Shown here: positions 47,036 to 64,000 of the stretch, piece by piece
Numbering within the stretch: the first letter of the stretch is position 1
Layout: the number at the start of each line of letters is the position of its first letter
DNA from: an uncultured Ignavibacteria bacterium
GTDB lineage: Bacteria > Bacteroidota > Ignavibacteria > SZUA-365
Assembly: GCA_913061095.1 (NCBI GenBank)
Contig: CAJXVM010000009.1
Location: 124,001 to 188,000, forward strand
Direction of reading: 5' to 3'
Length of the DNA stretch: 64,000 nt
The notes under the pieces: generated by a model
Seen by the model: only the letters and a program-made list of their open reading frames with translations
Told to the model about the DNA's origin: nothing
Database searches by the model: none
Translations under genes and position numbers: made by a program

Positions 47036-47320
47036 TTTTCTTGCAATTCCTGTGTGCATCCCGTACATTTTTACCGTCTATCTGACAATAGGGCCTTCTA
47101 TAGATCACATCGCTACAGAAAACGCCGGACGCTGAAACATTTTCGCTCCTTTTCACGTTAAAGGAGATGAGTCCAAAAACTGTCCGGTCACGCGATTGTA
47201 ACCTTTTTTGTTCTCGCGTGTCTTAGCAGATGAGTGACGATCAAAAGGAGAAGAAGTATCGATAGCTGTTGTTAGTGCTTCACAAGTACTTGCTTCATCC
47301 ACATCCTTACAGGAGGCACT

Positions 47321-47566
47321 ATGCATAACGAACTGAAATCCGGCGAGAATCCCCTGCAGGATCTCATTGACGACGATGTGTTTTTCGAGCTGAACAAGCA
47401 CAACCTTTTCAGTGAGAAAGCGATTCGTGACTACAAGATCCGCCGCATGTTCCGCAGCATGCGCAAGGACATGAGTGCCGGAGATGCCATAGACAAGATC
47501 CGCGAGATGTATCCCTATCTGCAGTTTGATACGGTCCGCAAGATTGTCTATCAGATCAACAAGTGA
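47321..47566 (+). CDS. Small conserved helical protein
   Basis: 81 aa; AGGAGG stands just before ATG 47321. The sequence is helical and charged (DYKIRRMFRSMRKDM, then DAIDKIREMYPYLQFDTVRKIVYQ). The last 30 residues look like a helix-turn-helix of the kind found in small DNA- or ribosome-associated proteins. It is soluble and followed by its own terminator. Function unknown; it sits just before the tRNA gene. Confidence 0.7.
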   Translation: MHNELKSGENPLQDLIDDDVFFELNKHNLFSEKAIRDYKIRRMFRSMRKDMSAGDAIDKIREMYPYLQFDTVRKIVYQINK

Positions 47567-47587
47567 TAACCGTCAATGACGATACAG

Positions 47588-47619
47588 ACCCCGTCCCGCC
47601 CAGCGGTACGGGGTTTTTT
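47588..47619 (+). terminator. Rho-independent terminator
   Basis: ACCCCGT and ACGGGGT enclose a 13-nt loop, followed by TTTTTT, 21 bp after the stop of the 81-aa gene. Confidence 0.75.
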
Positions 47620-47665
47620 GTTCATCTTGCGTTTCGGGGGTGACCCTCGTATTTTACTGGTCTTC

Positions 47666-47748
47666 GGAGGGTTAGCATAATTGGTAATGCAGCAGTCTTG
47701 AAAACTGCCGTCCGCAAGGACTTGTGGGTTCGAGTCCCTCACCCTCCG
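47666..47748 (+). tRNA. tRNA-Ser(UGA)
   Basis: Acceptor strands GGAGGGT (47666-47672) and ACCCTCC (47741-47747) pair fully; the discriminator is G. The D arm is AGCATAATTGGTAATGC. The anticodon stem GCAGT/ACTGC holds loop CTTGAAA, giving anticodon TGA. A variable arm with stem GTCC/GGAC (GCAA loop) marks a class II tRNA. The T arm is GTGGG TTCGAGT CCCTC. CCA is not encoded. The 3' end faces an integrase gene, so it is the probable attachment site. Confidence 0.93.
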
Positions 47749-47761
47749 CTTGCCATACGAG

Positions 47762-47795
47762 ACAGCCCGGAATCACTGATTTCGGGCTGTTTTCG
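47762..47795 (+). terminator. Terminator after the tRNA
   Basis: ACAGCCCGGAA and TTTCGGGCTGT pair (one G-T) around TCACTGA, followed by TTTCG, 14 bp past the tRNA. Confidence 0.65.
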
Positions 47796-47813
47796 TTAAT
47801 TCCAATCCTCCTG

Positions 47814-47858
47814 ATCCACCTGAATCCACTGGTTTTTACTGGATGGTGGATTTTTTTT
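47814..47858 (+). terminator. Second hairpin with T-run near the junction
   Basis: ATCCACC/GGTGGAT plus an inner ATCCA/TGGAT stem, with a three-base bulge, is followed by eight T. It separates the tRNA unit from the integrative element. Confidence 0.6.
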
Positions 47859-47873
47859 GGATGTTTTTCGAGG

Positions 47874-47903
47874 GAAAGAAAAGCCCCGGCGGTGACCCGG
47901 GGC
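47874..47903 (-). terminator. Terminator of the integrase operon
   Basis: GCCCCGG/CCGGGGC stem (47883-47889 and 47897-47903). On the minus strand it is followed by TTTTCTTT. It lies 7 bp beyond the integrase stop. Confidence 0.7.
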
Positions 47904-47909
47904 CGAAGA

Positions 47910-48992
47910 CTACTTGATCTTGACGTTGCAGATGATGTTCACCTGCAGGTGCATGCCATCGGGCGCGAGGTAAGCATAGACCTCGGTTTCCTTGATGCTG
48001 GAATGGCCGAGGAGCTTGCTCACGTCCTGGATCTTTACTCCCATTTGAACCAGGTGGCTTGCGAACGTGTGGCGGAATTTATGCAGCTTCGCAACCTTGA
48101 TCCCTGCTTTCTTCGCTGCCTTCTTGCACTTGTCCAGTGCTGTGCGTTCAGGGATCTGCCGGCCCGTCTTCGTGGCGAAAACGAAGTCCTCCGAGTACGG
48201 TTCCTTGCGGAGCTTCTCCAGCTCTTCATACAGCCTCTCACTGATGGGAATCGTGCGATTGGCGTTGGGAGTCTTCACGTCGAAATCTGATCGCTCATGG
48301 ACGTGGAGAACACGCTTTTTGAAATCGACATCCTCCCAGCGAAGCGAGGCGGCCTCGTTGAACCGCATGCCGGTATCGAGGAGGCCGAGGAAGAAGAGCC
48401 AGTAGGGCCGTGAAATAGGTTGTGCGAAGAACCGCTTCAGCTCATTCTCGGAGAAAAAATCCGGCCGTTTCCGTTCGATCTTGAGTGGCTTGATATGCAG
48501 GAAAGGGGAGCGGGCGATGTGTCCTGCCGCCACTTCCTGGTTGAATACCGCGCGCACGACCATCAGGTACATGTTCACGGTTTTCGGTTTCGGTTTCAGG
48601 ATTCGATCAGTCGAGCCTTTCGGATCTTTCTTCTCGGCGATCAGAGCACCGTAATACTCCGTGGCGAGATCCGTGGAGAACTCATTCACGTACGCAATCC
48701 CAACTGCCGCACAGAAGTGTTCGAACTGGTCGAGAATGTAGTTGTACCGCTTGGTCGTTCGTGGTGTGAGGTCTGCCTTGCTGGCCTTGAAATCCCGGAC
48801 AGCGTCGTCGATGCGGTAGCGGACTTTCCGTGCACCCGCGCCGATCAACTTGTGATCCAGTCGTTCTTTCTTGATTGCGTCTTCGTAGTCACGTGCATCA
48901 GTCAGTTTCTCGAACATGCGCTGATGACGCTTCCCGAAGGCGTCTCGTTGGTCGACCTTATAGCGGCCGTCTTTCTGTTTTTTTATTGCCAT
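47910..48992 (-). CDS. Tyrosine-type site-specific integrase
   Basis: 360 aa; AAGGAAA lies before ATG 48992. It has an N-terminal arm-type region (AIKKQKDGRYKVDQRDAFGK), a core-binding SAM-like domain (KRYNYILDQFEHFCAAVG), and a catalytic domain with Arg in LDTGMRFNEAASLRWEDV, HKFRHTFASHLVQMG (H-x-x-R), LLGHSSIKET and the nucleophile tyrosine in VYAYL. It cuts and rejoins DNA at the tRNA-Ser gene, 160 bp away. The C-terminus is extended by 18 residues beyond the tyrosine. It is the last gene of the leftward arm. Confidence 0.93.
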   Translation of the reverse strand: MAIKKQKDGRYKVDQRDAFGKRHQRMFEKLTDARDYEDAIKKERLDHKLIGAGARKVRYRIDDAVRDFKASKADLTPRTTKRYNYILDQFEHFCAAVGIAYVNEFSTDLATEYYGALIAEKKDPKGSTDRILKPKPKTVNMYLMVVRAVFNQEVAAGHIARSPFLHIKPLKIERKRPDFFSENELKRFFAQPISRPYWLFFLGLLDTGMRFNEAASLRWEDVDFKKRVLHVHERSDFDVKTPNANRTIPISERLYEELEKLRKEPYSEDFVFATKTGRQIPERTALDKCKKAAKKAGIKVAKLHKFRHTFASHLVQMGVKIQDVSKLLGHSSIKETEVYAYLAPDGMHLQVNIICNVKIK

Positions 48993-49084
48993 GCTATTTC
49001 CTTGAAATTGTTTTGAGTCAAGTCGCCGCATGGTGCCGGTTGGATCCGACACCCGCAGCGATAAGACTAATCCGACAGCGAGTT

Positions 49085-49501
49085 TCACACTGCCATAGCA
49101 GAGTAAATGGTGAGCTTCACCTCCCAGGTGGGAATTCCATCAGTGGCGGATGGCCAGTTCATCCCGTAGGCAAGCAGGTTCATGACAAGCTGGTACGTCA
49201 CGGCAACCAGATCCGCATGTACATCATCACTGATCGTTGAATTTTCGCCATTTTCGATCAGCTCATACTGATCCCAGAGCGTGCTGGTCGATACGACCAG
49301 CGATGCAAGGTTGCAATTTCCTAAAGCCAACTTCTCGGCTGCCTCCTGAATCAAATAAATTAATTGTTCCTCGGATTCAGCGGGCCGATTCATTTTTAGA
49401 AGCCCAAGTATTCCGAGCATCCCGCTTGTACTCCACCACTGCAATACCTCGGTCGGATCGGGGAGAGTGGTCCAGCCGAGACTGTGAGTATTTAAACGCA
49501 T
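49085..49501 (-). CDS. Element-borne protein of unknown function
   Basis: 138 aa; AAGGATC precedes ATG 49501. It is soluble, mostly helical and acidic (LIYLIQEAAEKLALGNCN, LWDQYELIENGENS). No motif or homologue is recognised. It lies between the helix-turn-helix gene and the integrase in the leftward operon, so it may modulate excision or replication; this is by position only. Confidence 0.6.
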   Translation of the reverse strand: MRLNTHSLGWTTLPDPTEVLQWWSTSGMLGILGLLKMNRPAESEEQLIYLIQEAAEKLALGNCNLASLVVSTSTLWDQYELIENGENSTISDDVHADLVAVTYQLVMNLLAYGMNWPSATDGIPTWEVKLTIYSAMAV

Positions 49502-49512
49502 AATTGATCCTT

Positions 49513-49824
49513 TTATATGGTAATTCCGTACACCAGCAGTTCTGCCAGCGTTTCCAGTGAGATCCGTCGTTGCCGTCTGCCATGCGGCGTTGAAGCTATC
49601 GTGCCTGCTTTGACGCGGCGGCGGACGAATTCGTATTGAGCGTTCAGAATTTCAGCCGCCTCGGAAACGGTGAATACGTGTTTGCCGGGATGCTGCTCTT
49701 TCAGCTCTGTGATTTTTTCTTCGACCGTGGCGGAAGGGAGAGGGGCCGGAGATCCGGCCTCCTCTTCTTGCTTCCGGCTGCGCATCGGCCGCTGTGCTTT
49801 GTATGTGGAGAGATCAATTGCCAC
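49513..49824 (-). CDS. MerR/excisionase-type helix-turn-helix protein
   Basis: 103 aa from GTG 49824; ATG 49785 would remove 13 residues. The C-terminal half, HVFTVSEAAEILNAQYEFVR followed by RRVKAGTIASTPHGRRQRRI, is the excisionase/MerR-like recognition fold (a helix-turn-helix then an arginine-rich wing). Such proteins bend DNA for excision or repress element promoters. Its position between replication protein and integrase fits an Xis or control protein. It starts within 21 bases of the preceding stop, so is cotranscribed. Confidence 0.7.
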   Translation of the reverse strand: MAIDLSTYKAQRPMRSRKQEEEAGSPAPLPSATVEEKITELKEQHPGKHVFTVSEAAEILNAQYEFVRRRVKAGTIASTPHGRRQRRISLETLAELLVYGITI

Positions 49825-49844
49825 TTCTCGCGTCCTGAGTCCTG

Positions 49845-51623
49845 TCAGCCTTCCTGAATGCTGCGCTTGGATGGCAGGATCGTGCGGCCAGTAGGCAGCG
49901 GATCTCCCGGGAACAGCAGAGCGCGACGCCCGCGGCCACCGGCCCCGTTCACCAGGTAGCCGTCCTCCACGCAACGCTTGACGCGACGTGAGACTGTGCT
50001 CTTGTCGAGACCGAGAGCATCTGCGAGTTCGGTGATGCTCACGCCATTCCGAGTCTCGGATTCTTCCATGATCTCGATCACAGCGTTGACGGTTTCACTC
50101 GTCTGCGGGCTAACGGTCATCTCGACCATTTCGGAGAGAATCGGGTTGAGAAGATGACGGACTGCTTCATAGTCAGCCCAGATTGCCACGATGCTGCCTT
50201 CATCATCCCGCGAGCGCTTGTGCACATGCAGCAGCGCGTGTGATTTGATCAGACCAATCAGCAAGTTTTTGTCCCGCCGGAGCCGCAGCGACACCGGGGG
50301 AATCTTTCCGAGCAGAGCGCCGAGATACGGGATATGAACCGGCGCGGCATTATGGGCGATGCATTCCTGCAACGCTTTCCACAGACGCACGACTTTTTCC
50401 GGAATCGGCGTGTCCACGGCAGCGATCATGCGCGCGGTGGTATCCGCATCATCTGCAACGGTCAGTGAGAAGAGCCTCGTTTCTGTTTCTGCGTGAAGCT
50501 TGATACCTGTCGTTGTCGTGATAACGGCGACAGGTCCTTCCTTTTTGATGACGACGCCCTCACGGCCGCCGCCCCGTTTTGGCCTTGTCGTATGGAGCTG
50601 CAACTCGCCCTCGGTGAGAAGGCTACGCAACGTGTAGGCGAGTTTTCGGCTGTCGATGCCATCTGCTTCGTTGATAAGCAGTACGCGGTGAGCGAAAGTC
50701 GCATTACTGTAGTAGAGCGACGCCGGGCTCATCCCCGTCATTTTAAGGTAAGCGGCTTCTGGCATGAGCTTCGTCACGCGATCAACGGCATAAGATTTGC
50801 CTGCCGCGCTCGAGCCTTTGATGGCAAGAGAAACCGGCCGGTCAAGCAGCCGTGATGTGAAAGCCAAGTAAATGAGCTTGACATGATCGATGTCCCCTGC
50901 GAATCCTGTACCGAGGAGAACCTTTGCCAGGTCATCCAGCAGGTTGCCGGAACGAAGGAGTGAACCCGCATCGACCTGGGCGCGTTCAACTGACTGTTCG
51001 CCAACGGAGTCCATGTCCACCTGCCACGGACGGAGGTTCTTCAGTTCGGAGCGGAGGTGAGATTTCAGGTCCCCGTCATACCGTGATGCCATGGAGAGCA
51101 GGTCACCAGCGGTGGACGGCGCTAGCGCAGCATGCTCACGCAGATCAGAGGTCGTGAGCCATTCCGGGAAATCGTTACCGAGGAAGACAACGTGGTCCAC
51201 GCCGTCGAGGAATGTGTCCCAGGTTGCTTGCCAGATGCGGTCGGCACCAGGACTGACTGCCTGGAATCCAAGACTCCACGCCAGCGCAGCGTCCAGTTCG
51301 GACGGAAGGATGAATACCGGCTTTCTCAGGTTCCAGCCGGTACGATGCCAGATTCCATACGGCACGTCGGCTGCTTTGCCCTTCCAGAACCAGTTGACAG
51401 GAACATCGGAGTCACCGTCGACCGTACGAAGGACACGCGTACCTAGCACGCTGCCCTGCGTATTATAGTAAGGGACGTGCAGTTCGGAGAGACCGTCCTT
51501 CGTGGCATAGCCGCCGCCGTTGAGCCGGAGAATGATCCAGAGTGCGGCTGCCGTCGCCTTGCCGACGATGGTCGTGAGCCAGGAAGGCGGGGGTTGAGGA
51601 GAATTGTGAGAAGATGTCTTCAT
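49845..51623 (-). CDS. TOPRIM/AAA-type replication protein with C-terminal winged helix
   Basis: 592 aa. AGAGG precedes ATG 51623; the extra upstream frame is discarded. An N-terminal TOPRIM-like region (VFILPSELDAALAWSLGFQA, with VVFLGND) comes first. Walker A KGSSAAGKS is at about residues 268-276, Walker B-like VLLINEAD further on, and an arginine-finger region later. The C-terminus is a winged helix (SITELADALGLDKSTVSRRV). This order is that of primase-helicase or replication initiators of mobile elements. It may unwind the element origin. Two palindromic operators lie 65-100 bp upstream. Confidence 0.75.
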   Translation of the reverse strand: MKTSSHNSPQPPPSWLTTIVGKATAAALWIILRLNGGGYATKDGLSELHVPYYNTQGSVLGTRVLRTVDGDSDVPVNWFWKGKAADVPYGIWHRTGWNLRKPVFILPSELDAALAWSLGFQAVSPGADRIWQATWDTFLDGVDHVVFLGNDFPEWLTTSDLREHAALAPSTAGDLLSMASRYDGDLKSHLRSELKNLRPWQVDMDSVGEQSVERAQVDAGSLLRSGNLLDDLAKVLLGTGFAGDIDHVKLIYLAFTSRLLDRPVSLAIKGSSAAGKSYAVDRVTKLMPEAAYLKMTGMSPASLYYSNATFAHRVLLINEADGIDSRKLAYTLRSLLTEGELQLHTTRPKRGGGREGVVIKKEGPVAVITTTTGIKLHAETETRLFSLTVADDADTTARMIAAVDTPIPEKVVRLWKALQECIAHNAAPVHIPYLGALLGKIPPVSLRLRRDKNLLIGLIKSHALLHVHKRSRDDEGSIVAIWADYEAVRHLLNPILSEMVEMTVSPQTSETVNAVIEIMEESETRNGVSITELADALGLDKSTVSRRVKRCVEDGYLVNGAGGRGRRALLFPGDPLPTGRTILPSKRSIQEG

Positions 51624-51686
51624 AGTACCTCTGTACATTGAAAATGATGATGGGCTATGTTTTTTCGCCCTGTACAGGTACCTGCG

Positions 51687-51721
51687 GGACAAAACGTGTC
51701 CGACCCGGACATTTCATGTCC
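51687..51721 (-). promoter_or_regulatory. Tandem palindromic operators or iterons upstream of the replication gene
   Basis: GGACAAAACGTGTCC (51687-51701) and GGACATTTCATGTCC (51707-51721) both have GGACA-N5-TGTCC symmetry and are exactly 20 bp apart, placing them on the same DNA face. They lie between the start of the replication gene and the end of the 465-aa gene. A repressor site or origin iterons are both possible. The HTH protein at 49513 is a candidate ligand. Confidence 0.65.
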
Positions 51722-51801
51722 GAGTGATTTTTTTGGAGATTTTTCTGAATTGCGGGGAAATTAAGGTAGGGTGAGCAACTGCGCCCGCGGTCAATCCACC
51801 G

Positions 51802-53199
51802 TCACCGTTTGGGCGGCAGTGTCACGTACCAGTCGCGGTCGGGATCAGGTTTCACATCGTAGCCGCCACTTCGGGCCTTGAATCTCGGTGGTGCTACGTA
51901 ATCGTAAAATGCCTTGGCCTCTGGTACTTCTTCTAGCGCCTCCTTCATCCTGTCGAATGCCTTTCGAACTGATTCTTGCGCCAATTTCAGCCTATCCATC
52001 AACTTTCGTGGTCTCCCTTCTTGGTCAAAATGGATATTATACTCCTGATTGAACTCTTTGAGCGTATTCGCCGCCGCCTCTCGCTCCTCAGGGGCAGTGC
52101 AGGTGTCTCGATACGCTTTCAGTTCAAGAGCATATTGTTTCCATGCCGTTGAGTCCTCGCGAGCATCCTCAGGGATCATGCTCATGAACCGGGAGACGAC
52201 GATATTCTCATCGCCCATATCGACAGGTGTCTCTGCTCCCGCGTCCGACTCGTTCGGGTTCCTCAGGTATAGACTTAATCTGGTTACATGGCGGTACTTG
52301 TTGATGCTATCCAAAAGCAGTGCAAGGTAGATGCTCCCGACACGTACCCGGTATCGACCCACAGGTTCCCCATCGAACCAGATTTCAAAATATTCCCCGC
52401 TGCATACCATCCGATTCGGATAATCTTCCAACCGATGCTCCGCGGCACCCTCTTGTTCCGACTCGCCCTGTAGTGTATCAGCTACATCCTGAGCGGCAGC
52501 TTCCTCCTGCGCGTCAGTGTCGCCGATCAACTGCGCGTAAACTTGCTCATCAACGATTCCCTCACCCTCAACTATGGCCTCAATCAGCTTTCCTACACCT
52601 TCATCTGAAATCGGTAACGTCCTCATCGTGACAGGAGGAACAGATTTGAGAGAAACTATATCGCTTTTCCCATCATGCCGGCCGAGATACCAATGCAGAA
52701 ACGGAAGGACGGCCGTATCCCACAGCGCGCGGATTTTCTGGGGAGAAAACTCCGGCGCGAATATATCACTCCAATCCTCATCCAGAATGACTCCCGGCAA
52801 TATCTCATTCTCGAAGTCTGTCCATACTTTTCTTATACCGACAGATTCATCCAACCGAAGCGTGTCCAGCACGAACACCTGGAACGTTGCGAGCAGCGCA
52901 ACGGCATCCTCGAAAGATCGCCCGGTCACTCCATGAATCCCGCGTAAAAGCGGCTCAATCTCCTCCACTGCCGCATCGGTGAGCGTACCCTGAATGAAAT
53001 ATGGTGGCATCACGGCAAGCAGTTCGACGCCCAACTTTGCTGATCTATCAGCCTCAAAGATTCTGACAGATATGGTCTCGTCCGCTGCTAGCACGGATGG
53101 TAATGTCATGTGGAACGAGACCTGTACGCGCTGGCGCAATTTCAACCACCTCTCATACGCGGGGAGATACTCGGCAACTAAATCCTCGATCTCTGACAT
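51802..53199 (-). CDS. Large element protein of unknown function
   Basis: 465 aa; GAGGGAAG precedes ATG 53199. It is soluble and acidic, with helices at both ends (RQRVQVSFHMTLPSV, MDRLKLAQESVRKAFDRMKE). The middle has an Ala/Asp/Glu-rich linker (DTDAQEEAAAQDVADTLQGE) and strand-like ends that include GEYFEIWFDGEPVGRYRVRV. No signal peptide or membrane segment. I do not recognise a family. First gene of the leftward arm, divergent from the 36-aa gene by 75 bp. Confidence 0.6.
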   Translation of the reverse strand: MSEIEDLVAEYLPAYERWLKLRQRVQVSFHMTLPSVLAADETISVRIFEADRSAKLGVELLAVMPPYFIQGTLTDAAVEEIEPLLRGIHGVTGRSFEDAVALLATFQVFVLDTLRLDESVGIRKVWTDFENEILPGVILDEDWSDIFAPEFSPQKIRALWDTAVLPFLHWYLGRHDGKSDIVSLKSVPPVTMRTLPISDEGVGKLIEAIVEGEGIVDEQVYAQLIGDTDAQEEAAAQDVADTLQGESEQEGAAEHRLEDYPNRMVCSGEYFEIWFDGEPVGRYRVRVGSIYLALLLDSINKYRHVTRLSLYLRNPNESDAGAETPVDMGDENIVVSRFMSMIPEDAREDSTAWKQYALELKAYRDTCTAPEEREAAANTLKEFNQEYNIHFDQEGRPRKLMDRLKLAQESVRKAFDRMKEALEEVPEAKAFYDYVAPPRFKARSGGYDVKPDPDRDWYVTLPPKR

Positions 53200-53273
53200 T
53201 TGGCGACTTCCCTCATGGAATCGGGTATAAGAATCCTGTACTGGTACTGATTCTACAACACAGGAGACATCAC
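53200..53273. promoter_or_regulatory. Short divergent control region of the element
   Basis: Only 74 bp separate the two arms. AGAATC and GATTCT (53230 and 53250 region) flank CTGTACTGGTACT, a dyad that could be a shared operator. AGGAGA for the rightward arm is at its end. Confidence 0.35.
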
Positions 53274-53384
53274 ATGCAAATCCCCAATCCTACCCGATGG
53301 ATCAACGTCGTCATCGTGCTCGGCGAAGAGGCCGTGCGCTGGATCTTCCGCAAGATTCGTGGAGGCCATACGGATGAGTACTGA
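53274..53384 (+). CDS. 36-aa protein, first of the rightward arm
   Basis: ATG 53274 follows AGGAGA by 7 nt. It encodes MQIPNPTRWINVVIVLGEEA, ending in IFRKIRGGHTDEY: one hydrophobic stretch with a basic tail, possibly membrane associated. Its stop lies 11 bases inside the next gene (start 53374), giving translational coupling. Too short to classify. Confidence 0.5.
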   Translation: MQIPNPTRWINVVIVLGEEAVRWIFRKIRGGHTDEY

Positions 53385-53910
53385 ACCGCATTTCATGGAA
53401 GCCCTGCTTGACGAAGCCATCGAGCAGGAGCAGGTCCAGTCCGAGGCATACGCGGATCTTGTGCTCATCGAGATTCGTGACCTGACCGCGCGCATCGAGA
53501 CAACGCTGGAGCAGGCCGCCGCGGAAAAACAAATTATCGATGACTGGGCTCTCACCCGCAGCGCCAAGCTTCAGGAGCGCATCGACTTTCTCTCAAAAAA
53601 ACTCGAAGCATTCATCGCCGAGCGCAACGTCAAGACCATCGACCTGGCCAATGGTCAGCTGAAGGTGCGGAAGAAACCGGATCGCGTGGAGGTGCAGGAC
53701 ATGGATCAGTTTCTGCTTCACGCGTCGCGCGATCTCGTATCGACAGTGCCTGAGTCCGTGAAGCCGGACCTGATGGCGATTAAGCAGTTCGTCAAGCGCA
53801 CCGGTGGACGGGCGCCACAAGGTGTCCGCATCATCGAAGGCAAGGAAGAATTTTCATACAAGCTGAAAGGAACAACGAATGGAAAATCAGAGAGCAAAGC
53901 TGGAGCTTGA
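53374..53910 (+). CDS. Siphovirus Gp157-like / Gam-like protein
   Basis: 178 aa from ATG 53374, behind GGAGG; GTG 53359 is an alternative. An N-terminal coiled coil (EAIEQEQVQSEAYADLVLIE, IETTLEQAAAEKQIIDDW) precedes LSKKLEAFIAERNVKTIDLA and LKVRKKPDRVEV. The latter matches the strand-turn of Gp157 and of Gam host-nuclease inhibitors, in which coiled coils are followed by a KT-GxLxxRKxPxxVEV-like motif. Such proteins bind DNA ends or confer phage resistance. Heads the phage-like recombination genes of the rightward arm. Confidence 0.65.
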   Translation: MSTEPHFMEALLDEAIEQEQVQSEAYADLVLIEIRDLTARIETTLEQAAAEKQIIDDWALTRSAKLQERIDFLSKKLEAFIAERNVKTIDLANGQLKVRKKPDRVEVQDMDQFLLHASRDLVSTVPESVKPDLMAIKQFVKRTGGRAPQGVRIIEGKEEFSYKLKGTTNGKSESKAGA

Positions 53911-54397
53911 GCTCAACGAACCGCGTGAGCTGGTGCTCCTCTACGATCAGCCCAAGACCGGAACGAGCAATTATGGTGACTGGCAACTTTTCGCACTGGT
54001 AGATCCCAGTACCGGCGTCGAGTACAGTTTTTTCAGCCCGAGTGATATCGTTACGCAGCAGCTCAGCCAGTTCAATGCGGGCGACAAGGTTCGACTCGTC
54101 AAGACCGCCAAGCAGGTTGGCAAGAAAGTCATCACCGATTACTCCGTGACATCTGCGAACGGCGGACCGCTGAAGTCCAAGCTCAATGGTAACGGGAATG
54201 GGCAAGATGCTGTGGCGCAGACTGAACCGTCTGCATCGGATGCGCTCTTCCAAATTCTGGAGTCCTGCTATGCCGATGCGATTCGGCTGCAGGAACGCTT
54301 CAACGGAATGGTCGATGTGAACCGACTGGCCATCACGCTGTTCATCGCGCGCAGCAAGACCAACGGCCACGCACTTGCCGGCGGGGTGTCATCATGA
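53879..54397 (+). CDS. Possible OB-fold single-stranded DNA-binding protein
   Basis: 172 aa; AAAGGA precedes ATG 53879, which overlaps the previous gene by 32 bases. Strands GDWQLFALVDPSTGVEYSFF and GDKVRLVKTAKQVGKKVITD suggest a five-stranded OB barrel. The glycine/asparagine-rich segment LNGNGNGQDAVAQTEPS and helical C-terminus recall SSB-type linkers. The start of the next gene overlaps its stop (ATGA). Its place between Gp157-like and DUF932 genes supports DNA recombination. The fold is inferred, not shown. Confidence 0.5.
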   Translation: MENQRAKLELELNEPRELVLLYDQPKTGTSNYGDWQLFALVDPSTGVEYSFFSPSDIVTQQLSQFNAGDKVRLVKTAKQVGKKVITDYSVTSANGGPLKSKLNGNGNGQDAVAQTEPSASDALFQILESCYADAIRLQERFNGMVDVNRLAITLFIARSKTNGHALAGGVSS

Positions 54398-55167
54398 GAA
54401 CGGACATCGAACGCAGACTTGAACCTTACCTTTTCCCGGTAACCGAAACCGCCGTCTACCGTGACGGCGCTGGAGAGAATGGCGTGCCGCAGATATCGAA
54501 AGACCATAAGGCCATCGTGCGCAAGGATAACGGAAAACTGATTTCCATTCAGCGAAACAGCTACAAGCTCGTTCCGAATTCCGAAGTCATCAAGCCGCTC
54601 ATGGATCAGCTGCACAAACTCGACACGTCCTGGTATATCGACAGCTCTCATTCGTTCGTCGATGATGCCCGCATGCGGCTTCAGATAACGTTCCCTGAGC
54701 TCGTGGTTCACGATGGACGATCAGATATTGCGCTCAGCCTCTATCTGCACAACAGCTACGACAGTTCTGAAGGTGTTCGCATGTACTTTGGGGCTATTCG
54801 ATTTCTCTGTAGAAATGGATTCGCGTTCGGGCAGATCCTTTCCAAGTTCTACGGCAAGCACACGACGGGCTTCGACATGCAGAACCTGCAACGTGAGCTT
54901 TCGGCCACTGCGGAAAAGCTTCCGGTCATCAAGCACAGAATCGGCACTCTTCTGGAAAGCAAGGTGGACAAGAACCTTCGCCTTGAAATTGACCGCCGCC
55001 TGGGCAAGCGTGTGACCAAGTACATCGAGCAGCAGGAGCAAGAGACGCAGAGGGCACAGAACCAGTGGGCGATGTACAATATCATCACGTACTACGTGTC
55101 CCATCTGGTCAAGCAGCGTATGCGAGCTGATTACCAGCTTCGGGCGAGCAAGATTTTCGGACTTTGA
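54394..55167 (+). CDS. DUF932 (phage/plasmid-like) protein
   Basis: 257 aa, overlapping the previous stop by four bases. Characteristic pieces are KDHKAIVRKDNGKLISIQRN with YKLVPNSEVI, IDSSHSFVDDARMRLQITFP, and GAIRFLCRNGFAFGQI, the layout of DUF932 proteins found on phages, plasmids and integrative elements near RecT/SSB genes. The C-terminus is helical (KYIEQQEQETQRAQNQW). Biochemical activity is not established. It supports a mobile origin of this arm. Confidence 0.8.
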   Translation: MRTDIERRLEPYLFPVTETAVYRDGAGENGVPQISKDHKAIVRKDNGKLISIQRNSYKLVPNSEVIKPLMDQLHKLDTSWYIDSSHSFVDDARMRLQITFPELVVHDGRSDIALSLYLHNSYDSSEGVRMYFGAIRFLCRNGFAFGQILSKFYGKHTTGFDMQNLQRELSATAEKLPVIKHRIGTLLESKVDKNLRLEIDRRLGKRVTKYIEQQEQETQRAQNQWAMYNIITYYVSHLVKQRMRADYQLRASKIFGL

Positions 55168-55169
55168 CG

Positions 55170-55472
55170 ATGTGGTTCCGAAGGAAGAAACTTCCTGACC
55201 CTCGTGAAGCAGAACCGTTCTGGCCTATGCGCTGTCCTAACTGCGGGTCCGACAAACTCCAGAAGATCGTCTTTGGCATCCCAACGGAGAACGAAAAGCT
55301 GCTTGGGAAGCGCCGCATGGCCATCTTTCTCGGGTGCGATGCAGACTTGGTGAACCTGCCACACTGGTACTGTAAAAAGTGCAAACACGGCTGGCAGGAC
55401 AAGAACGATTTCCGCTGCTATGAATGGAAGGAATGGTTGAAGGCATTCAGCAAGCTATCCCACGATCCGTAA
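55170..55472 (+). CDS. Zinc-ribbon protein
   Basis: 100 aa from ATG 55170 (TTG 55164 is possible). Two cysteine pairs, MRCPNCGSDKLQ and HWYCKKCKHGW, enclose about 50 residues and form a zinc ribbon; a fifth cysteine and tryptophan follow at FRCYEWKEW. No catalytic domain. It probably binds DNA or protein. It starts two bases after the DUF932 stop, so belongs to the same operon. Confidence 0.65.
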   Translation: MWFRRKKLPDPREAEPFWPMRCPNCGSDKLQKIVFGIPTENEKLLGKRRMAIFLGCDADLVNLPHWYCKKCKHGWQDKNDFRCYEWKEWLKAFSKLSHDP

Positions 55473-55543
55473 CCCACTATATATCCAACATATACAGCGG
55501 CCTTGTCGATTTGGATGAGGCCGCTCTTCATTCGGAGGCAATC

Positions 55544-56128
55544 ATGCAGTATGAGCATTGGAGCACCGAAAGGCTGGTTCAGGCTATCACAGGCAGACGA
55601 ATACATGAGCTGCCTCACCTTCGTGAGATAAGGCGCAATCCTGATTTGCTCCTGAGTATTGACGGTATCGGCACCGCATCGGCTAGACGCATACGCGCGG
55701 CACTGGAGCTTGGAATCCGGTATGCCACCGAACCTGCGACGGACAAGCCCGTGATCACGGGACCGGAAGACGTCGCGTCGATATACGGCCCGAGACTGCG
55801 CGACCTGAACCATGAGAGATTCTACGTGCTGGTGCTGGACAACGGCGGCCGCATTACGCATGAGCACCTGGTATCCCAGGGAATCGCAAACGCCTCGATC
55901 GTTCACCCCAGAGAAGTATTCCGCGAAGCGATCAGGCGCGGAGCATCGAACATGATATTGCTTCATAACCATCCATCAGAAGTGAAGGAGGCTTCGAGAG
56001 AAGACCACCTCATCACCCGGCAGCTCGTCGAAACTGGAAAAATCATCGACATAGAAATTCACGATCACATCATTATCGCTGGCCATTCCTACGTGAGTTT
56101 CGCGGAAAACGGCTGGCTGGAGGCCTAG
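55544..56128 (+). CDS. RadC-like JAB-domain protein
   Basis: 194 aa; GGAGG precedes ATG 55544. A longer frame from 55424 would overlap the zinc-ribbon gene and has no ribosome site. A helix-hairpin-helix region (LLLSIDGIGTASARRIRAAL) precedes the MPN/JAB fold: RFYVLVLDNGGRITHEHLVS, then LLHNHPSEVKEASREDH, with the two metal histidines and aspartate of RadC, while the usual G and P after HPS are replaced. RadC proteins are common on mobile elements and have no agreed function. It is the sixth gene of the rightward arm. Confidence 0.85.
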   Translation: MQYEHWSTERLVQAITGRRIHELPHLREIRRNPDLLLSIDGIGTASARRIRAALELGIRYATEPATDKPVITGPEDVASIYGPRLRDLNHERFYVLVLDNGGRITHEHLVSQGIANASIVHPREVFREAIRRGASNMILLHNHPSEVKEASREDHLITRQLVETGKIIDIEIHDHIIIAGHSYVSFAENGWLEA

Positions 56129-56132
56129 AATC

Positions 56133-56594
56133 ATGAAGAGAACAAACATCGCTCTGCTGGTATTGGCAGGGCTGCTTGCACTCTGGGATCTGACGCAGGG
56201 TCAGACCATCACCCAGGATACGTCCTGGTTTCGGAATGGGACCGTCAGCGCGCTTACGAGATATCTTGACGGCCAGCGCGTTGAACGTTGTGTCTTCTAC
56301 CCCACCGGTGAAGTCTGGATGATTGCGGAATACGATCCGGTAACGGAATTGCAGGACGGTGATGAGTTCTGGTACTGGCGAAATGGGGAAGCCCAGCACG
56401 CCTGCATATACGTTCGAGGCTATGCTCACGGTGAGGCCTACTGGTGGGACGAGTCAGGAAACTGGACGAAGACTGAACTCTACGTCGAGTCCCGGCGAGT
56501 GCCGCTGGACGACTTCTACAAGTACTTTCCTTCGGATGAATACGAAGCAGAACCAGATCCATCAGCGTTCGCGCTGAAAGCAAAGGGCCAATGA
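56133..56594 (+). CDS. Exported MORN-like protein
   Basis: 153 aa with an N-terminal signal peptide (IALLVLAGLLALWDLTQGQ). The mature part has repeats of the type GTVSALTRYLDGQRVERCVF, GEVWMIAEYDP and GEAYWWDESGNW, which are MORN-like hairpins. It starts five bases after the radC stop. Exported proteins at the end of mobile-element operons may be cargo. A terminator overlaps the stop codon. Confidence 0.6.
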   Translation: MKRTNIALLVLAGLLALWDLTQGQTITQDTSWFRNGTVSALTRYLDGQRVERCVFYPTGEVWMIAEYDPVTELQDGDEFWYWRNGEAQHACIYVRGYAHGEAYWWDESGNWTKTELYVESRRVPLDDFYKYFPSDEYEAEPDPSAFALKAKGQ

Positions 56595-56606
56595 GGCCCT
56601 TTCTTT
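56582..56606 (+). terminator. Terminator of the rightward arm
   Basis: AAAGGGCC and GGCCCTTT (8-bp stem, 5-nt loop) are followed by CTTT; the stop codon lies in the loop. It ends the operon that starts at 53274. Confidence 0.7.
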
Positions 56607-56676
56607 ATCTCCGGGCGCCATATAGGGGCATTCATATTTCCCAAACAAAAAATCTGATATGGCTTTTCCCTGGCGG

Positions 56677-56690
56677 AGGTACCGGTACCT
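56677..56690. repeat. 14-bp palindrome
   Basis: AGGTACCGGTACCT is a perfect palindrome. The following TGCG makes GGTACCTGCG, a string also present at 51676-51685 beside the tandem operators. A shared regulatory site at both ends of the element is possible. Confidence 0.35.
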
Positions 56691-56851
56691 GCGTTCCACT
56701 GCCGGGGCGTAAAGGGAGGCTCATTTTGGGAAGAAGTGTTTTGATTGCGATTTGGCACCTGCTGCCTCGCTTGTTGCCCGATTTCAACGTAGCTTTGCGG
56801 GTCTCATCGGACATCCGTATCTTCTGACATCCAATCAAGACGGGAGATCAG

Positions 56852-56935
56852 ATGCCGATTCCTGATTTTCAGACGATCATGCTGCCGTTACTCGAAGTTG
56901 CGAAGGACGGGGAGGGGTTTCATGATGCCTGCTGA
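56852..56935 (+). pseudogene. Truncated 5' end of an Mrr-type restriction endonuclease gene
   Basis: GGGAGA lies before ATG 56852. The 27 codons MPIPDFQTIMLPLLEVAKDG, then EGFHDAC, match the N-terminal helix of the Mrr winged-helix domain. The frame then stops at TGA 56933-56935. The rest of the gene is missing, and the next open frame starts within it in a different phase. A deletion or insertion junction must lie at about 56920-56935. Confidence 0.55.
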
Positions 56936-57634
56936 TCCCAACGAGCCGTTCGACTCTGATCCGCAGCAGATCGGTTGGATCTGGACGTGCAATGAAGAAG
57001 GAACAAGCCAAGGCTGTGATCACACGGTACAGATCATCCCGGCTAATCCGACAGGGATAGAACTGTCGCCGCTGTATCTGCATTTCGAAGCGGAGCGAGG
57101 TGGAGCCGTACCGGCAAAGCAAAACGCACAGCTCTGGACAGGTGGTGGACTTGCGATGCCGTGGACAGCTGTTCCTGATGCATGGTGGTTCGACACTCAG
57201 CCTGCTACGGGAAGTCAGGCATCGCAGATTGAAGTACAACCGAACAGCACGTTGCTGGATGAGGGGATACATGAAAGCGATCTCCTTTTTAGCACTGCAA
57301 GCACGGCGGCGAATGTAATGGTGACCTATGCCATCCATAAGAGCCCCGGCGAAATCGAAGAGACATCTCCAGTAGAGTTTTCTGTGGAGGTATGGCCGCA
57401 GCCTGTATCAGTTGGAGGGTTGCTATTTATAAAACAAATAATGATTTACCAAAAGGAAGTAGAATCAGTTTATGTGATATACTAGGACGGGACTGGATTA
57501 CGAATGAGAAGATGCATGATAACTTCACGACGATGGACCTTGGAAACAAAAAGCTCCCTGTTGGAAGCTATGTATTACGAATACTGACTAGTCGAAATGA
57601 GTACTACACTCGCATGGTTTTTGTTGTTCCATAA
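56922..57634 (+). pseudogene. T9SS surface protein, 5'-truncated and frameshifted
   Basis: From ATG 56922 a frame encodes a BACON-like beta domain (LSPLYLHFEAERGGAVPAK, WTAVPDAWWFDTQP, QIEVQPNSTLLDEGIHE) and the start of a sorting domain, VEVWPQPVSVGG. After the A-run at 57431-57434 the reading changes: one additional A restores KTNNDLPKGSRISLCDILGR and VGSYVLRILTSRNEYYT to TAA 57634. There is no signal peptide and the 5' part is missing. A real frameshift or a homopolymer sequencing error are both possible. Confidence 0.7.
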
Positions 57635-57844
57635 AACTAGGTAATAGGATGGGTGGGTAATGCACTATATTAGGCATATGAAGCAGTGATTAATATCGCA
57701 TCTACTAAATACTGAAACCGCATAGGTGTAGATGCAACTATTAATATCTAAGTTAAAGTAACATTATTGGTAGGAGGCAATCCCGAAAAACGTGAGCGCA
57801 ATTGTGCGTCAGAACGCATTAGTTATATACATTATGAAGAAATT
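57635..57844. other. AT-rich intergenic region
   Basis: 210 bp of clearly higher AT content than the sequence to the left. No gene or obvious promoter can be assigned with confidence. Confidence 0.3.
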
Positions 57845-59167
57845 ATGAATGGGATCATGAGAATAGTGAAACGTCGTGAGATTCTATTATTAGCGTCTAT
57901 CGGCTTCATTCTAGTATTGACGGATAGTACGGCTGAAGCGCAGATATGGGAGCGAAAGGCATTTCGTTTGCCAAACAACCAATTACTGACAAGTCGTACT
58001 GAGATTTTCTTTAATTCACGCGATACAGGGTGGCTTCACAGCGGTGGATATCTCAATAATGGTAATTATATCGGTGATGTACTAAGAAGCACAGATGCTG
58101 GAGATTCATGGCAGCTTATGCTCGACAGCATTGACAGATTCTATGCATTTAATGCTACGAGCCTGTGGGCAATACAAAATGATAGTCTGTTGATGAGTGT
58201 TGATGGCGGAAGAACGTGGGATGGTATTCAGTTTCATCAGCAGGTACAACAGATGTACTTCAGTGATCGGGCGCATGGATTGGCGTTAATACCGGATGGA
58301 GAAAAGTGTCTTTATACTAGTGACGGAGGACGGAGTTGGTTGAGCGCTGACAGTTTGGTTGCGCAGTCATATAAACAAGGATTTAGCTTCCCGACTCCAA
58401 GTATCGGATGGATGGTGGCAGATAGGAGCCCCTTTGCTATTGGTAACGGAATGATAGCTCGTACGAATAATGGTGGTAAATCATGGATATACCAAGAGCT
58501 CTACCCAGATTATCAGGTGCCTGTTCTACATAGTGTGCTGTTCGTAGATACCTTACATGGTATAGCTACGGGTCCTGGTCATGTACTAACGACCTCAGAT
58601 GGAGGTAACAGCTGGTCTAGAGAATACATACCCACGAGTGGATGGGCTATGGCGAAATCGGAAAGCAACGTAATATATGCATCCGGATGGAATGGTGATA
58701 TTCTATATTCCGACGATAGGGGAAAAAATTGGCAAACAATACAAACAGGAAGTAAAAATACGTTCACGCATATATATGCAGAAGGTACTGGAGGTAAGAT
58801 TGTAGCATTTGCGCGCATCTCCGAAGCAGAAGGAGAGCTTCTAATCGCAGAAGAGGTAAAGCTGTTGTCTGCTGAGGAACGCTGGACGAATAATGCAGAG
58901 AGCAATATCGTATTAAGTGTGTACCCGATGCCATTTATGGACAAAATACACTCTGAAATAATCGCACCAGTAGGTGAGTATCTATATGTTAGTGTTTTCA
59001 GGCTGTCCGGGCAAATGGTGTATCATGAAAAATTAGGTATCAGTACGTCTGATCTGATAAATTGGGAATGGCAGCCGAGTGCTATCAACTTAGATGCCGG
59101 GTCGTATATGTTGGTTGTGTATTCACGCAGTTCATATAGAAGCATCATATTGCAATACAATAAATAA
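57845..59167 (+). CDS. BNR-repeat (Ycf48-like) T9SS protein
   Basis: 440 aa from ATG 57845; ATG 57857 is an alternative, and a longer frame from 57767 is unlikely. The signal peptide is ILLLASIGFILVLTDSTAEAQ. Repeats of the BNR/Asp-box type appear throughout: RSTDAGDSW, SVDGGRTW, TSDGGRSW, RTNNGGKSW, TSDGGNSW, YSDDRGKNW, giving a beta-propeller. It ends in a T9SS type A domain (LSVYPMPF, VFRLSGQMVY, GSYMLVVY). Codon use is AT-rich. It is followed 27 bp later by the peptidase gene and probably shares its transcript. Confidence 0.8.
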   Translation: MNGIMRIVKRREILLLASIGFILVLTDSTAEAQIWERKAFRLPNNQLLTSRTEIFFNSRDTGWLHSGGYLNNGNYIGDVLRSTDAGDSWQLMLDSIDRFYAFNATSLWAIQNDSLLMSVDGGRTWDGIQFHQQVQQMYFSDRAHGLALIPDGEKCLYTSDGGRSWLSADSLVAQSYKQGFSFPTPSIGWMVADRSPFAIGNGMIARTNNGGKSWIYQELYPDYQVPVLHSVLFVDTLHGIATGPGHVLTTSDGGNSWSREYIPTSGWAMAKSESNVIYASGWNGDILYSDDRGKNWQTIQTGSKNTFTHIYAEGTGGKIVAFARISEAEGELLIAEEVKLLSAEERWTNNAESNIVLSVYPMPFMDKIHSEIIAPVGEYLYVSVFRLSGQMVYHEKLGISTSDLINWEWQPSAINLDAGSYMLVVYSRSSYRSIILQYNK

Positions 59168-59194
59168 AGTACTTATTATGGAGAAGGAGTTGGT

Positions 59195-62100
59195 ATGTCC
59201 AGATCATTAGTATGGTTTATGCTTGGATTCATGATACTAATAATTAATTGCGATCCGTCACATGCTGGGAAGAACAGCAACGCGCGGCAGCAGCTAACGG
59301 ATGGACAGAATGCGAGACTGTTACGTCCCTCGGTTAGGTCTTGCAAAATACCGAAAGATGTCCTTGTTCAAGGCACAGCAAGGATGATCGCGGATGATTA
59401 TATAGGGCGATATTTTAAGGATCTATATGTTGATGCAAGTGCAGATCTGGTTCATACAGAAAGAATAGCAAATCGAAGTCTGGAACACAATGTATACCAG
59501 CAATATCACCACGGAACAATTGTATTGGATTCGTACGTAATAGTATCAGTTGCAAACGAAGGGCGTATAGTGTCAGTATCAGCTAGCACTATGAAGATTA
59601 AAGGTGTTGATCTATCGCCGTCGATCAGTAAGAGCACTGCTCTTGAACTCGCAATGAGTTCATTAGGCATGAGCAGCAGCAGTGAGCGAAGACCGGATAA
59701 AATGAATTTATGTATTGTGCATGGCAGTGATACTACAGCGACTCTTGCATGGCGGATAGAGTACGGGGCGAATAGAAAACAAAATCCTGTTGAGATGTTG
59801 ATTTCAGCAAAGGACGGCGTCATATTAGAGTTAGTTGAGCCGATAAGTAGATCAGAAAATGGGAAAGGACGAGTGTTTAGCCCTGATCCGATAACAAGAT
59901 CTGGTGATAACACTCTTTGGGACAATAATAACACTAACTATCATCCTGTAAGTACATATTACGTTGATAATGTCGATCTACTGGAGCTTGACGATCCTGA
60001 CAACAATAAATACTATCTACGTGGTAAATATAGTTACTCAGTTGATTGGCGTGATCCAGTTGTAAGCATAATGGAGGAGAGTAATTCATCTGATTTTAAC
60101 TATACGAGGGATCAGCCGGGTTTCGAGGAAGTGAACATATACTACCATATTGATTGCTTCCGACGCTATATTGCATCACTAGGCATAAACCCATTGTTCG
60201 GATCATCGCAAGAACAATACATCTCTTTCGACGCCCATGGTTTTAATGGCGACCATGGTGCGGGGTATTGGAATAACATCAATGGGAAACCATTGCTTGA
60301 TTATGGTGATGGGATAAATGAAAATGATGTTGTTGATTCAGGAGAAGATCAGGATGTAATCATCCACGAATATACACATGCGATTCATGACGCATTGATG
60401 GGTACATCGTGGCCGCCGCAAATGGATGAAAATTCGATAGCTGAAGGAAGCGCTGACTATCTTGCAGTGAGCTACAGGCACAGCATTAATAGCCAGTATC
60501 AATATGGGAGGGTGTTTCCGTGGCATCATAACGATAATTCCATAGTGGTGCTTGGCCAACCTAGATACGTTGTCGATACTGACCCGAATAATCCCAAGAG
60601 GTATCCTACGCACTGGATAAATATTTATGCAGCAGGTTCTGTTTGGGCTTGTACTATGATGGATTTAGAAGCGAGCAGCACATATAGTATCGGAAGAGAC
60701 AAGACGAATGCACTTCTTCTTGGTTCTTTTTCATTCGCTTCTTCTACAACATCTGCTCCGAGACATATGTATCACATTATGCAAGTAGACGCGATTGAGT
60801 ATGACGGTGAAGACTTAGCATCAATTGGTCATGTGTTCTATGAGCGCGGATTCTTTAATGGAATTGGTACGCAACCAAGCCATACTATAAGTGCAAACAT
60901 AGTAAGTAACTTAGCACTAGATGAAGCCTATTGGATCAACGGGCAGATCTCAATCGCTCCTTCGGTCGATGTAACAGTGGAGGCATCCTCATTTCTCTAT
61001 ATTGGGCCGAATTCGAAATTATCGGTTGGGTCCGGATCCTCTCTAACAATCAAGGATGCAGCCTGGTTAGTTGCATTAGAGAATGGGGCGATTGAAGTAA
61101 GTGACGGTGGATATCTAGCACTTGAAGGGACGGCCGCTGTCCTGTTAGAGAGTGGTATAATACGGTGCTTGGGCTCAGGAAGCATCTCTATAAACGATTC
61201 TCGTGGCCTCCGTGGAAGTGGTACCCTCTCCAATGCTAATATCACTTCGATACACGGCATTGATATTCGCGAGGACCAAGCTATAGTGATGCAGGACGGT
61301 GGTGTCTTCGAATTCGATTGTGCCCCAGACAATCAGCCGCAGTACTTTCTTAACAGCGGCAATATCACGTTTCAAGGAAGCATTGATGAGTATGTTTTTG
61401 GTTCATGCCTGGACGAAATACGTGTTCACGCTTCCGGCGCCTTCGTTTCGGAAGCTGGAACCATATTGCAAAATCTACCTACGCTGATATCATGGGACAA
61501 TGCCGTGTTGGAAAGCAATGGGGATCAACCGGAACCATGTGAGTGGTTGTTCCGATCTGGTGCAGCGCTTGATATCTATACGTCACTTGTTGCCACATAC
61601 ACCACCTTTGGAGGTAGCACCATGCTCGGAATGCCCCCGGAAGAATGGGATGGAGTATTGGTTGGTGACGTGACTTCTTGGATCGATTTGGACTATTGCA
61701 CTGTGCAGGACGTTTATGTAGATCCTGTGTACAGCGGTAGCGGAATTCACTTCTACCAATCCGGAGTACAGTACATCAGCAGGATACGGAACAGTCGCAT
61801 TCTCCGGAACACTGGTGGTCAGTATAAGCATGGAGATGGTATCTTCCTGCAACCTGGGAATGCCTTTTCATATGTTAAGTTGGAGTGCTCAGAAATCAAT
61901 CAGGACTGGTACACCGGCTTTACCAGTGTTGGAAGCTACCCACGCATCTTCGACAGCAAGATCATGTACAACAACGTAGGAATTGGAGTCAGTGCCTCCT
62001 CAATCCTCACCATGCAGAGAAGTTGTGTCGAAGGGCATGTTTTTGAAGGAATCGATGTTAATGCATCAGAACTTTCTTTTGCATCGCAAGGCACAGCCGG

Positions 62101-63331: not shown

Positions 63332-63608
63332 ATCATCTTGAAATAGAGATAGAAACTGATGTCGATTTCTGGGCTGATGAAAGAACAGCCTCAAACATTT
63401 GTTTCTCAGTCTGACACATTATCGTGAAACCACAGGTGTTGAAGTCACTGAATGCACCAAGCAGAAATAGGGCAAGATGATATCCTGAATAGTAGGAAGA
63501 ATAGAAGCGTTCTTGTGCTGCTTCTACTCTGTGACCTGTCCTGTAGAAAGTACACCATGCCCTATGAACTGAATGACTTCAAGCTTCCAGAGGTAGCACA
63601 GGGATAAG

Positions 63609-63638
63609 TAGAAAAGTAGGCGACCGCCTACTTTTCTA
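63609..63638. terminator. Perfect 14-bp inverted repeat
   Basis: TAGAAAAGTAGGCG and its exact complement flank AC (a 13-bp stem with a GACC loop is the physical form). Being A/T-rich at the base on both sides, it works as a bidirectional terminator in principle. It stands 280 bp after the peptidase gene. Confidence 0.6.
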
Positions 63639-63729
63639 TGCCTTCACGATACGCGGATTCCACCAATTCACCTTCCAACCCTACCCTGCTCGACAAGAGC
63701 AGATCCGGCCTTCTTGGGGCGCCCCACAT

Positions 63730-63909
63730 TCAGGGCAAAAGTTGCTCTGAGAAGGGGTAGTTTAATAAAGTATATTATCATCCAGTTGGTAGAATCTCTG
63801 AGTTTTGCCCTGAAATCCTTTAATACGAGCTGGAATCGCCAAAATGGCAGGGCAAAAGTGGTGAGTTTTGCCCTGAATTTTGCCCTGATCCGGACAAGTT
63901 TTGCCCTGA
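63730..63909. repeat. Six copies of an 11-bp motif
   Basis: TTTTGCCCTGA occurs at 63803-63813, 63866-63876, 63878-63888 and 63899-63909 on the plus strand, and at 63730-63740 and (one mismatch) 63847-63857 on the minus strand. Five lie within 110 bp, just beyond the stop of the leftward gene entering from the right edge. The mixture of orientations and irregular spacing (12, 21 and 63 bp) suggest protein-binding sites rather than a satellite. Confidence 0.65.
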
Positions 63910-63931
63910 ATCAGTCACCACGGCGCTCTTC

Positions 63932-64000
63932 TCACCACACGAAGTAGTGAGTCCCGTCAGATTTCTTCGAGTCAATGCCGTACAGAGCGAGTTTTTTCCC
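63932..64000 (-). CDS. C-terminal end of an unidentified protein (partial)
   Basis: An open minus-strand frame enters from the window edge and stops at TGA (complement of 63932-63934). The 22 visible residues include ALYGIDSKKSDGTHYFVW. The aromatic end looks like a genuine C-terminus but is too short for a family call. The repeats at 63730-63909 lie directly downstream. Confidence 0.5.
   Translation of the reverse strand, partial: GKKLALYGIDSKKSDGTHYFVW

Follow-up and report, generated by a model that had tools for sequence, protein, structure and literature searches.

Within a stretch of 64,000 nucleotides from an uncultured Ignavibacteria bacterium (the window, C9:124001-188000), a tRNA-Ser(TGA) gene is followed by what is very probably a cargo-carrying integrative element, which is probably able to excise and replicate. 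Here C9, C28, C12 and C1 are contigs of the source genome, G001 to G009 are the genomes it was compared with, and L numbers are fetched stretches of sequence; plain coordinates are those of the window. An integrative element had been placed at this tRNA gene in an earlier reading of the window (the original prediction), and it is borne out by a displaced tRNA end, by empty sites in relatives and by a homologous element at another tRNA-Ser gene.

The target gene is intact (47666-47749, + strand, ARAGORN), and its last 18 nt, the left attachment (att) core (47732-47749, +), recur exactly at the start of C28, where the right-end motif comes first and the tRNA end follows at C28:113-130 (18 of 18 nt identical by blastn). 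Integration duplicates these 18 nt, leaves the tRNA whole and sets the element's own terminator behind it. This element-borne, terminator-like hairpin (47762-47790, +), seen in the left-end alignment, is unlike the host terminator at the empty site of G004, and further in lies an arm-type motif, TGGATTTTTTTTGGATGTT (47847-47865, +), with its right-end counterpart TGGATGTTTTTTGGATGTT at C28:35-53. The other border was located through a search of 47300-47800 in 61 genomes including the source, in which the part from the tRNA end onward was also found away from tRNA-Ser(TGA), both in the source genome and in relatives. As had been predicted, the window holds no second copy of the tRNA end, the 20-mer quoted for it being single there with up to 3 mismatches allowed. 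It had been proposed that this 20-mer be sought beyond the right edge, where it does not recur (it is single in the genome at up to 2 mismatches), but the shorter exact copy of 18 nt on C28 does. A match to CGATTCCCTCACCCTC at 52554 was dismissed as a chance match within a gene.

The stretch originally described stopped at 56606, with the right border left open; homology to the copy in G009 extends to about 56710 and is followed by cargo, the actual right border lying outside the window. A right border at 56606 is rejected, as neither an att copy nor a right-end motif is found there. The window's unit is at least 19.3 kb long (47750-64000, a further 2,953 bp by which C9 runs on past the window, and C28 1-130) plus an assembly gap, compared with the 8.9 kb first envisaged. 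It has a displaced tRNA end, an integrase between its borders and an empty site in a relative, which together make up the Islander definition of a tDNA-integrated genomic island as set out in the accessible part of that source (PMC4383910).

C9 and C28 are linked by synteny, the contig junction itself being unassembled. In G001, G004 and G008 the left flank of tRNA-Ser(TGA) adjoins the C28 stretch from about 7,800 on, and in G004, which is of the same genus, the host sequence of C28:6740 begins within about 40 bp of the tRNA. As this host sequence comes right behind its tRNA, G004 carries an empty site, and from this comparison the insertion at the locus is at least 25.9 kb plus the unread gap. 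A block fixed in all relatives, with no empty site, was the outcome that the original prediction had named as speaking against itself, and it does not hold, with G004 being cleanly empty. At this locus G001, G002, G003 and G008 yielded no backbone gene, the readable sequence behind the tRNA being limited to about 3.6 kb in G002 and 2.9 kb in G003. The insertion comprises at least two units, that of the window and one from C28:131 to about 6,740; the latter is the older, and the window element sits in front of it. The older unit encodes three large exported-type proteins, one of which has a Pfam type IX secretion system (T9SS) tail at 29.4 bits (cut-off 27), the others scoring 20.8 and 21.5. 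Stacking of this kind is already known, as 125 tandem arrays of two or more islands at tRNA genes are counted in the accessible text on Islander (PMC4383910).

The same genome contains a sibling element. The tRNA-Ser(CGA) gene at C12:122742-122830 is followed by an integrase that is 40% identical to that of the window over the matched part, then by a HTH_17 gene, a Prim-Pol/AAA_25 protein, an intact mrr, other cargo and, near the contig end, a PrimPol-SF3 gene. The end of C1 carries the right-end motif and then AATCCCAGTCTCTCCGC, which is the CGA tRNA end (attR), and behind it is a terminator-bearing stretch that is 91% identical to the one directly behind tRNA-Ser(CGA) in G006. From the right-end motifs, the tRNA ends and the G006-like terminator the contigs pair as C9-C28 and C12-C1. 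The start of C28 and the end of C1 share a common right-end motif (97% identical over 98 nt), and C9 and C12 both break off inside one 227-nt repeat (81% identical). In both elements of the source genome a PrimPol lies towards the right end.

The same backbone is found in G009, of another genus, at tRNA-Ser(GCT). The backbone is formed by the two divergent arms that had originally been described. The leftward arm, all on the - strand, was said to hold control genes, a replication ATPase and an integrase, and it can now be read as an integrase, a 138-aa open reading frame (ORF), a HTH_17 gene, a 615-aa ATPase and a 465-aa protein. The tyrosine integrase (47910-49088; PF00589, 112.6 bits; 64% identical in G009) has its C-terminus towards tRNA-Ser(TGA), so that it faces the 3' end of the tRNA as predicted, its true start possibly being further inside. 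The 138-aa ORF (49085-49501) has no match in G009, and its 4-nt overlap with the integrase ORF holds only if GTG is the true integrase start. Next come the AlpA/excisionase-like HTH_17 protein (49513-49947; PF12728, 28.9 bits, cut-off 27; 65% identical in G009), the start of which is uncertain, and the ATPase (49845-51692; 82% identical in G009), which is considered below. The last gene of the arm (51802-53199) encodes a 465-aa protein found in 2 of 294 genomes, with an N-terminus 81% identical in G009 and a C-terminus unlike that of its counterpart; its structural model (mean predicted local distance difference test score, pLDDT, 37.7) was too poor for a structure search. When this gene is set against L030:5348-6337 the N-termini are about 80% identical across two genera and the C-termini look unrelated, as if exchanged.

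From the ORF positions, the gap between the arms (53200-53358) is presumably a control region. The rightward arm (+ strand) begins with a Mu Gam-like protein (53359-53910; PF07352, 44.4 bits; 47% identical in G009) and continues with a 172-aa protein of no family (53879-54397; 50%), a DUF932 protein (54394-55167; PF06067, 52.7 bits; 84%), a 102-aa cysteine-rich protein with weak matches only and no counterpart in G009 (55164-55472), a RadC-like JAB protein (55424-56128; PF04002, 137 bits; 66%) and a small exported MORN-like protein (56133-56594; 55%), where homology to G009 runs on to about 56710. The Gam-like, DUF932 and RadC assignments of the original prediction are thus upheld, and the last protein is indeed small and exported, but its MORN match (PF07661, 26.5 bits) stays below the cut-off of 29.6. 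Two further labels fell away: the supposed zinc ribbon of the 102-aa protein reaches no curated cut-off, and for the supposedly OB-like 172-aa protein there is nothing in Pfam or PHROGs and an NCBIfam match at chance level (E 0.058).

Integrase, Gam-like and HTH_17 genes are known in phages too, and a decayed prophage might leave such a set. The backbone is however intact and is kept as a set by another genus, where it lies at a different tRNA, which makes this explanation highly improbable, and it was rejected as no structural, lysis or terminase gene was found (PHROGs). The absence of capsid genes had been predicted and is confirmed by PHROGs for the ten backbone proteins, none of which is a structural phage protein, the best head-type match (E 0.018) being to the Gam protein. 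It is also distinctly unlikely that the element is an integrative and mobilizable one, moved by a conjugative helper by means of an unseen origin of transfer (oriT) or relaxase. It does have an integrase, cargo and genes of the DUF932/RadC type, and the latter are common on conjugative elements, but among the backbone and cargo proteins scanned there was no relaxase or type IV secretion family, the gap being unread and no oriT search having been made.

Behind the backbone lies the cargo. The start of a mrr gene remains at 56808-56886 (+), 80% identical to the intact mrr locus of the source genome, and is followed by a fragmented gene for an exported protein (56898-57634, +, from the ORF list), the first fragment of which has no Pfam match and the end of which looks T9SS-tail-like by eye. 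The next two genes are for an exported BNR/YCF48-like repeat protein (57767-59167, +; PF14870, 41.6 bits; PF15902, 46.8) and a M36-like metallopeptidase with a T9SS tail (59195-63331, +; PF02128, 31.1 bits; TIGR04183, 27.6, cut-off 23). The C-terminal end of a PrimPol/SF3-type protein (63932-64000, -; AEP-TOTE, 80.9 bits; DUF5906, 63.6) closes the window, and this gene continues beyond it to L027:2277. Directly behind the end of the PrimPol gene (63799-63910) are four copies of a 16-nt motif, TGAGTTTTGCCCTGAA and variants, which are possibly iterons. The PrimPol-SF3 proteins of L027:1-2277 and L097:12623-14872, both of one genome and 46% identical, are similar to CRISPR-associated PrimPols and to the primase portion of DRT UG10 defence proteins. 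Among the cargo of G009 are a type I restriction-modification system, a NYN protein and an NTPase weakly similar to NACHT. G009 also retains a partial second DUF932 gene and a partial second exported-protein gene; by their sequence these partial duplicates suggest the trace of an earlier stacked copy.

Whether backbone and cargo form one unit has to be weighed, as the backbone, to about 56.7 kb, could be one element and the cargo and PrimPol a separate insertion stacked at the same tRNA. The GC content of about 53-56% in the backbone falls to about 42-48% behind 57 kb, the PrimPol is elsewhere in G009, and stacking is present at this very locus in the second unit on C28. However, neither an att core nor a right-end motif is found near 56.7 kb, and in the sibling at tRNA-Ser(CGA) mrr and PrimPol likewise lie inside the unit, flanked by the integrase and the right end, so a separate insertion is considered unlikely. 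Three points weigh against a single cargo-carrying element: the unassembled junction of C9 and C28 could hold further att sites or another element; the PrimPol might belong to a different nested element, given that the PrimPol-SF3 gene of G009 is on a different contig; and a complete right side has been seen in no second copy of the backbone.

The original prediction of a replication ATPase is right as to the ATPase, which is now seen, from alignment, a model and fold and profile searches, as a TOPRIM/MCM-like AAA+/winged-helix helicase in which the primase site has been lost. In the model, made from a 20-sequence alignment (mean pLDDT 81.7), the AAA+ part matches the MCM helicase 6mii (Z 22.0, root mean square deviation 3.1 over 271 residues), and the best 50 rows from VIA-align all contain MCM, although other AAA+ families may still fit; Foldseek matches also include RuvB, RavA, NtrX and Twinkle/T7 gp4. 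Profile searches relate the N-terminal part to the DnaG and T7 gp4 primases (2au3, E 1.9e-5; 1nui, E 3.5e-4), and Pfam places a winged helix at about residues 545-590. The EG of the first TOPRIM motif, which we take from the DnaG family to be catalytic, is kept in 18 of the 20 aligned sequences; the proteins of the window and of G009 have PS in its place and do not have the second motif, both retaining the GKS of the ATP site and the RLRRD segment. Judged by these residues, the TOPRIM half of the window helicase has lost its primase active site. DUF927 is not among the 22 Pfam matches of the protein at E up to 0.1, and neither DUF3987 nor DUF5906 was matched in it by Pfam. With the ATPase alone phmmer gave weak matches only, mostly to winged-helix regulators, and PADLOC matches were confined to its C-terminal region.

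In a class-wide sample of 391 genomes 5 have the ATPase, and with the 465-aa protein being as rare as it is, the backbone is sporadic. Homologues of the helicase are found at 34 loci in other bacteria of many phyla, and at 17 of these the fetched stretch is matched by the window integrase (tblastn), with a tRNA 120-190 bp away from the integrase match in L058, L062 and L064. Of these loci L057, which is the G009 contig, is the one to share the Gam-DUF932-RadC operon, L089 having just a RadC match. Amongst ten loci viewed by eye, L064, L083 and L084 have a small helix-turn-helix-like ORF directly before the helicase gene. Helicase and integrase matches occur twice at equal spacing in L088:6593-14516, from a Thermomonas beijingensis contig, apparently as a tandem pair of elements. 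The helicase was matched in 27 of 72,556 plasmid records, 13 of them from Leptospira.

A likeness to phage satellites had also been proposed, and part of it stands. The order of an integrase, a small ORF overlapping it by 4 nt, an AlpA/HTH_17 (PF12728) gene and a primase/helicase, without capsid genes, is that of the PICMIs of Vibrionaceae, and the pairing of an integrase with an AlpA-type regulator (PF05930/PF12728) by which these are recognised is also found here, with PF00589 and PF12728 both over their cut-offs, as far as PICMIs are set out in the accessible part of their description (PMC10803314). That part also has a DUF3987/DUF5906 primase beside AlpA and integration next to fis, whereas here DUF5906 is found only in the right-end PrimPol and the element is at tRNA-Ser; the element is moreover larger, bears cargo, has no known helper, and G009 does not share its 138-aa overlapping ORF. 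SaPI and SCC elements, too, encode MCM-like helicases that are linked to primases, and in the accessible text on SaPI Rep and SCCmec Cch (PMC7581432, PMC10061031) an MCM-like AAA+ domain is likewise followed by a winged helix in a primase-linked protein of an integrative element, but the window protein has no DUF927 match, its primase half is of the TOPRIM type and degenerate, and recombinase and host are different.

In a strict phage satellite a helper phage would induce the element and package its DNA. Against this, the helicase had no match in 50,697 phage records, and the ATPase, the 465-aa protein and the left-end pattern gave nothing in viral contigs, two of the three scans being sensitive to close relatives only. 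The proteins scanned include no terminase, capsid or packaging-redirect gene, which is indecisive as some satellites such as PICMI are also without packaging genes. A strict satellite is thus somewhat unlikely; the proposed likeness holds for the gene order, but the word compact does not suit a unit of at least 19 kb with cargo. By description, the element also has the form of a tycheposon, with a tRNA border, a tyrosine recombinase, variable cargo and a size within 4-200 kb, in a host phylum other than that of Prochlorococcus, going by the accessible part of that account (PMC10872708). The element is described here as working like a satellite- or tycheposon-type cargo element and is assigned to neither.

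For a cargo-carrying integrative element of this kind, the HTH_17 protein would steer the tyrosine integrase towards excision and the free form would be unwound by the MCM-like helicase. As the TOPRIM half of the helicase is without an active site, primers would probably be made by the PrimPol-SF3 protein close to the right end. Protection or repair of the element's DNA, whilst it is free or entering a cell, would probably fall to the Gam-DUF932-RadC operon. The region behind the backbone would act as an exchangeable cargo bay, holding exported proteins and a mrr remnant here and type I restriction-modification in G009.

The ends of the element are not confined to it. A left-end model (R1) was made from ten sequences that the stretch in the window had itself picked out and that therefore match by construction. 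It matches 9 of 31 genomes at E up to 0.001, these being 9 of the 12 of the host family and none of the 19 outside it. At most 104 candidates were scored per genome, and of the 24 matches some are weak (31-40 bits). The sites follow tmRNA and tRNA-Ser genes of four anticodons. Units with both ends but no intact integrase are found at C28:113 to about 6644, in G008 (L153, 1675 to about 8790, with an integrase fragment of 126 aa) and in G001, where a short unit runs from L150 11252 down to 9794; in the one-contig chromosome of G008 a single unit has a left end of the window type and a right end of the C28 type. Also in G008, behind tRNA-Ser(GGA), L153:263-1568 holds a small cassette-like array in which a 427-bp unit recurs 3.1 times at 100% match; every copy has a tRNA-Ser end and a terminator, and full copies have a GIY-YIG ORF as well.

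Of 29 sites, among them L054 with only about 30 bp of flank, 8 have as first inward ORF a T9SS-tail protein reading towards the end, and in 6 of those 8 its stop is within 10 bp of the model end, tails here being recognised by a small profile from three tails of the source genome and no curated model. The chance of a stop that close and in that orientation is about 0.0006 per site, a rough hand estimate in which the 4.6 Mb contain at most 289 candidate T9SS genes and the density is taken as equal in all genomes. As at least 150 T9SS genes are present in the source genome, their occurrence as cargo is weak evidence and only the abutting position is unusual. The protein bodies differ between several sites, with most tails sharing 50-63% identity. 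The T9SS genes of L031 and L146 are each followed by an integrase fragment, so that the integrase-less units may be decayed elements and not working passengers. L029:10106-10247 (C12) has a full left end of this family behind the tmRNA gene; about 100 bp further inside a T9SS-tailed protein ends, and the stretch read gave no match to an integrase.

It is possible, and is put forward tentatively, that a system extends across the host family with the window element as its autonomous member, in which integrase-less passengers with shared ends (the tRNA-Ser or tmRNA 3' end, terminator and arm motifs), often with a T9SS gene abutting the end, would be moved in trans, and in which the labour of replication would be split between an MCM-like helicase whose DnaG-type primase half is dead and a PrimPol at the other end. 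Literature searches, which were judged by title and with most subscription papers outside reach, gave no account of the element or its end family.

The helicase family spans many phyla, yet Pfam names only its winged helix. For many genomic islands at tRNA genes no means of movement is known; here the ends are mapped, empty sites exist and a finished genome holds a relative, which makes excision directly testable. The shared ends likewise allow a test of whether integrase-less units with secreted proteins are tied to an autonomous element. If such a system does exist, the tRNA-Ser and tmRNA genes of these bacteria would be stacking sites for the swapping of secreted proteins, loosely like the cassettes of integrons.

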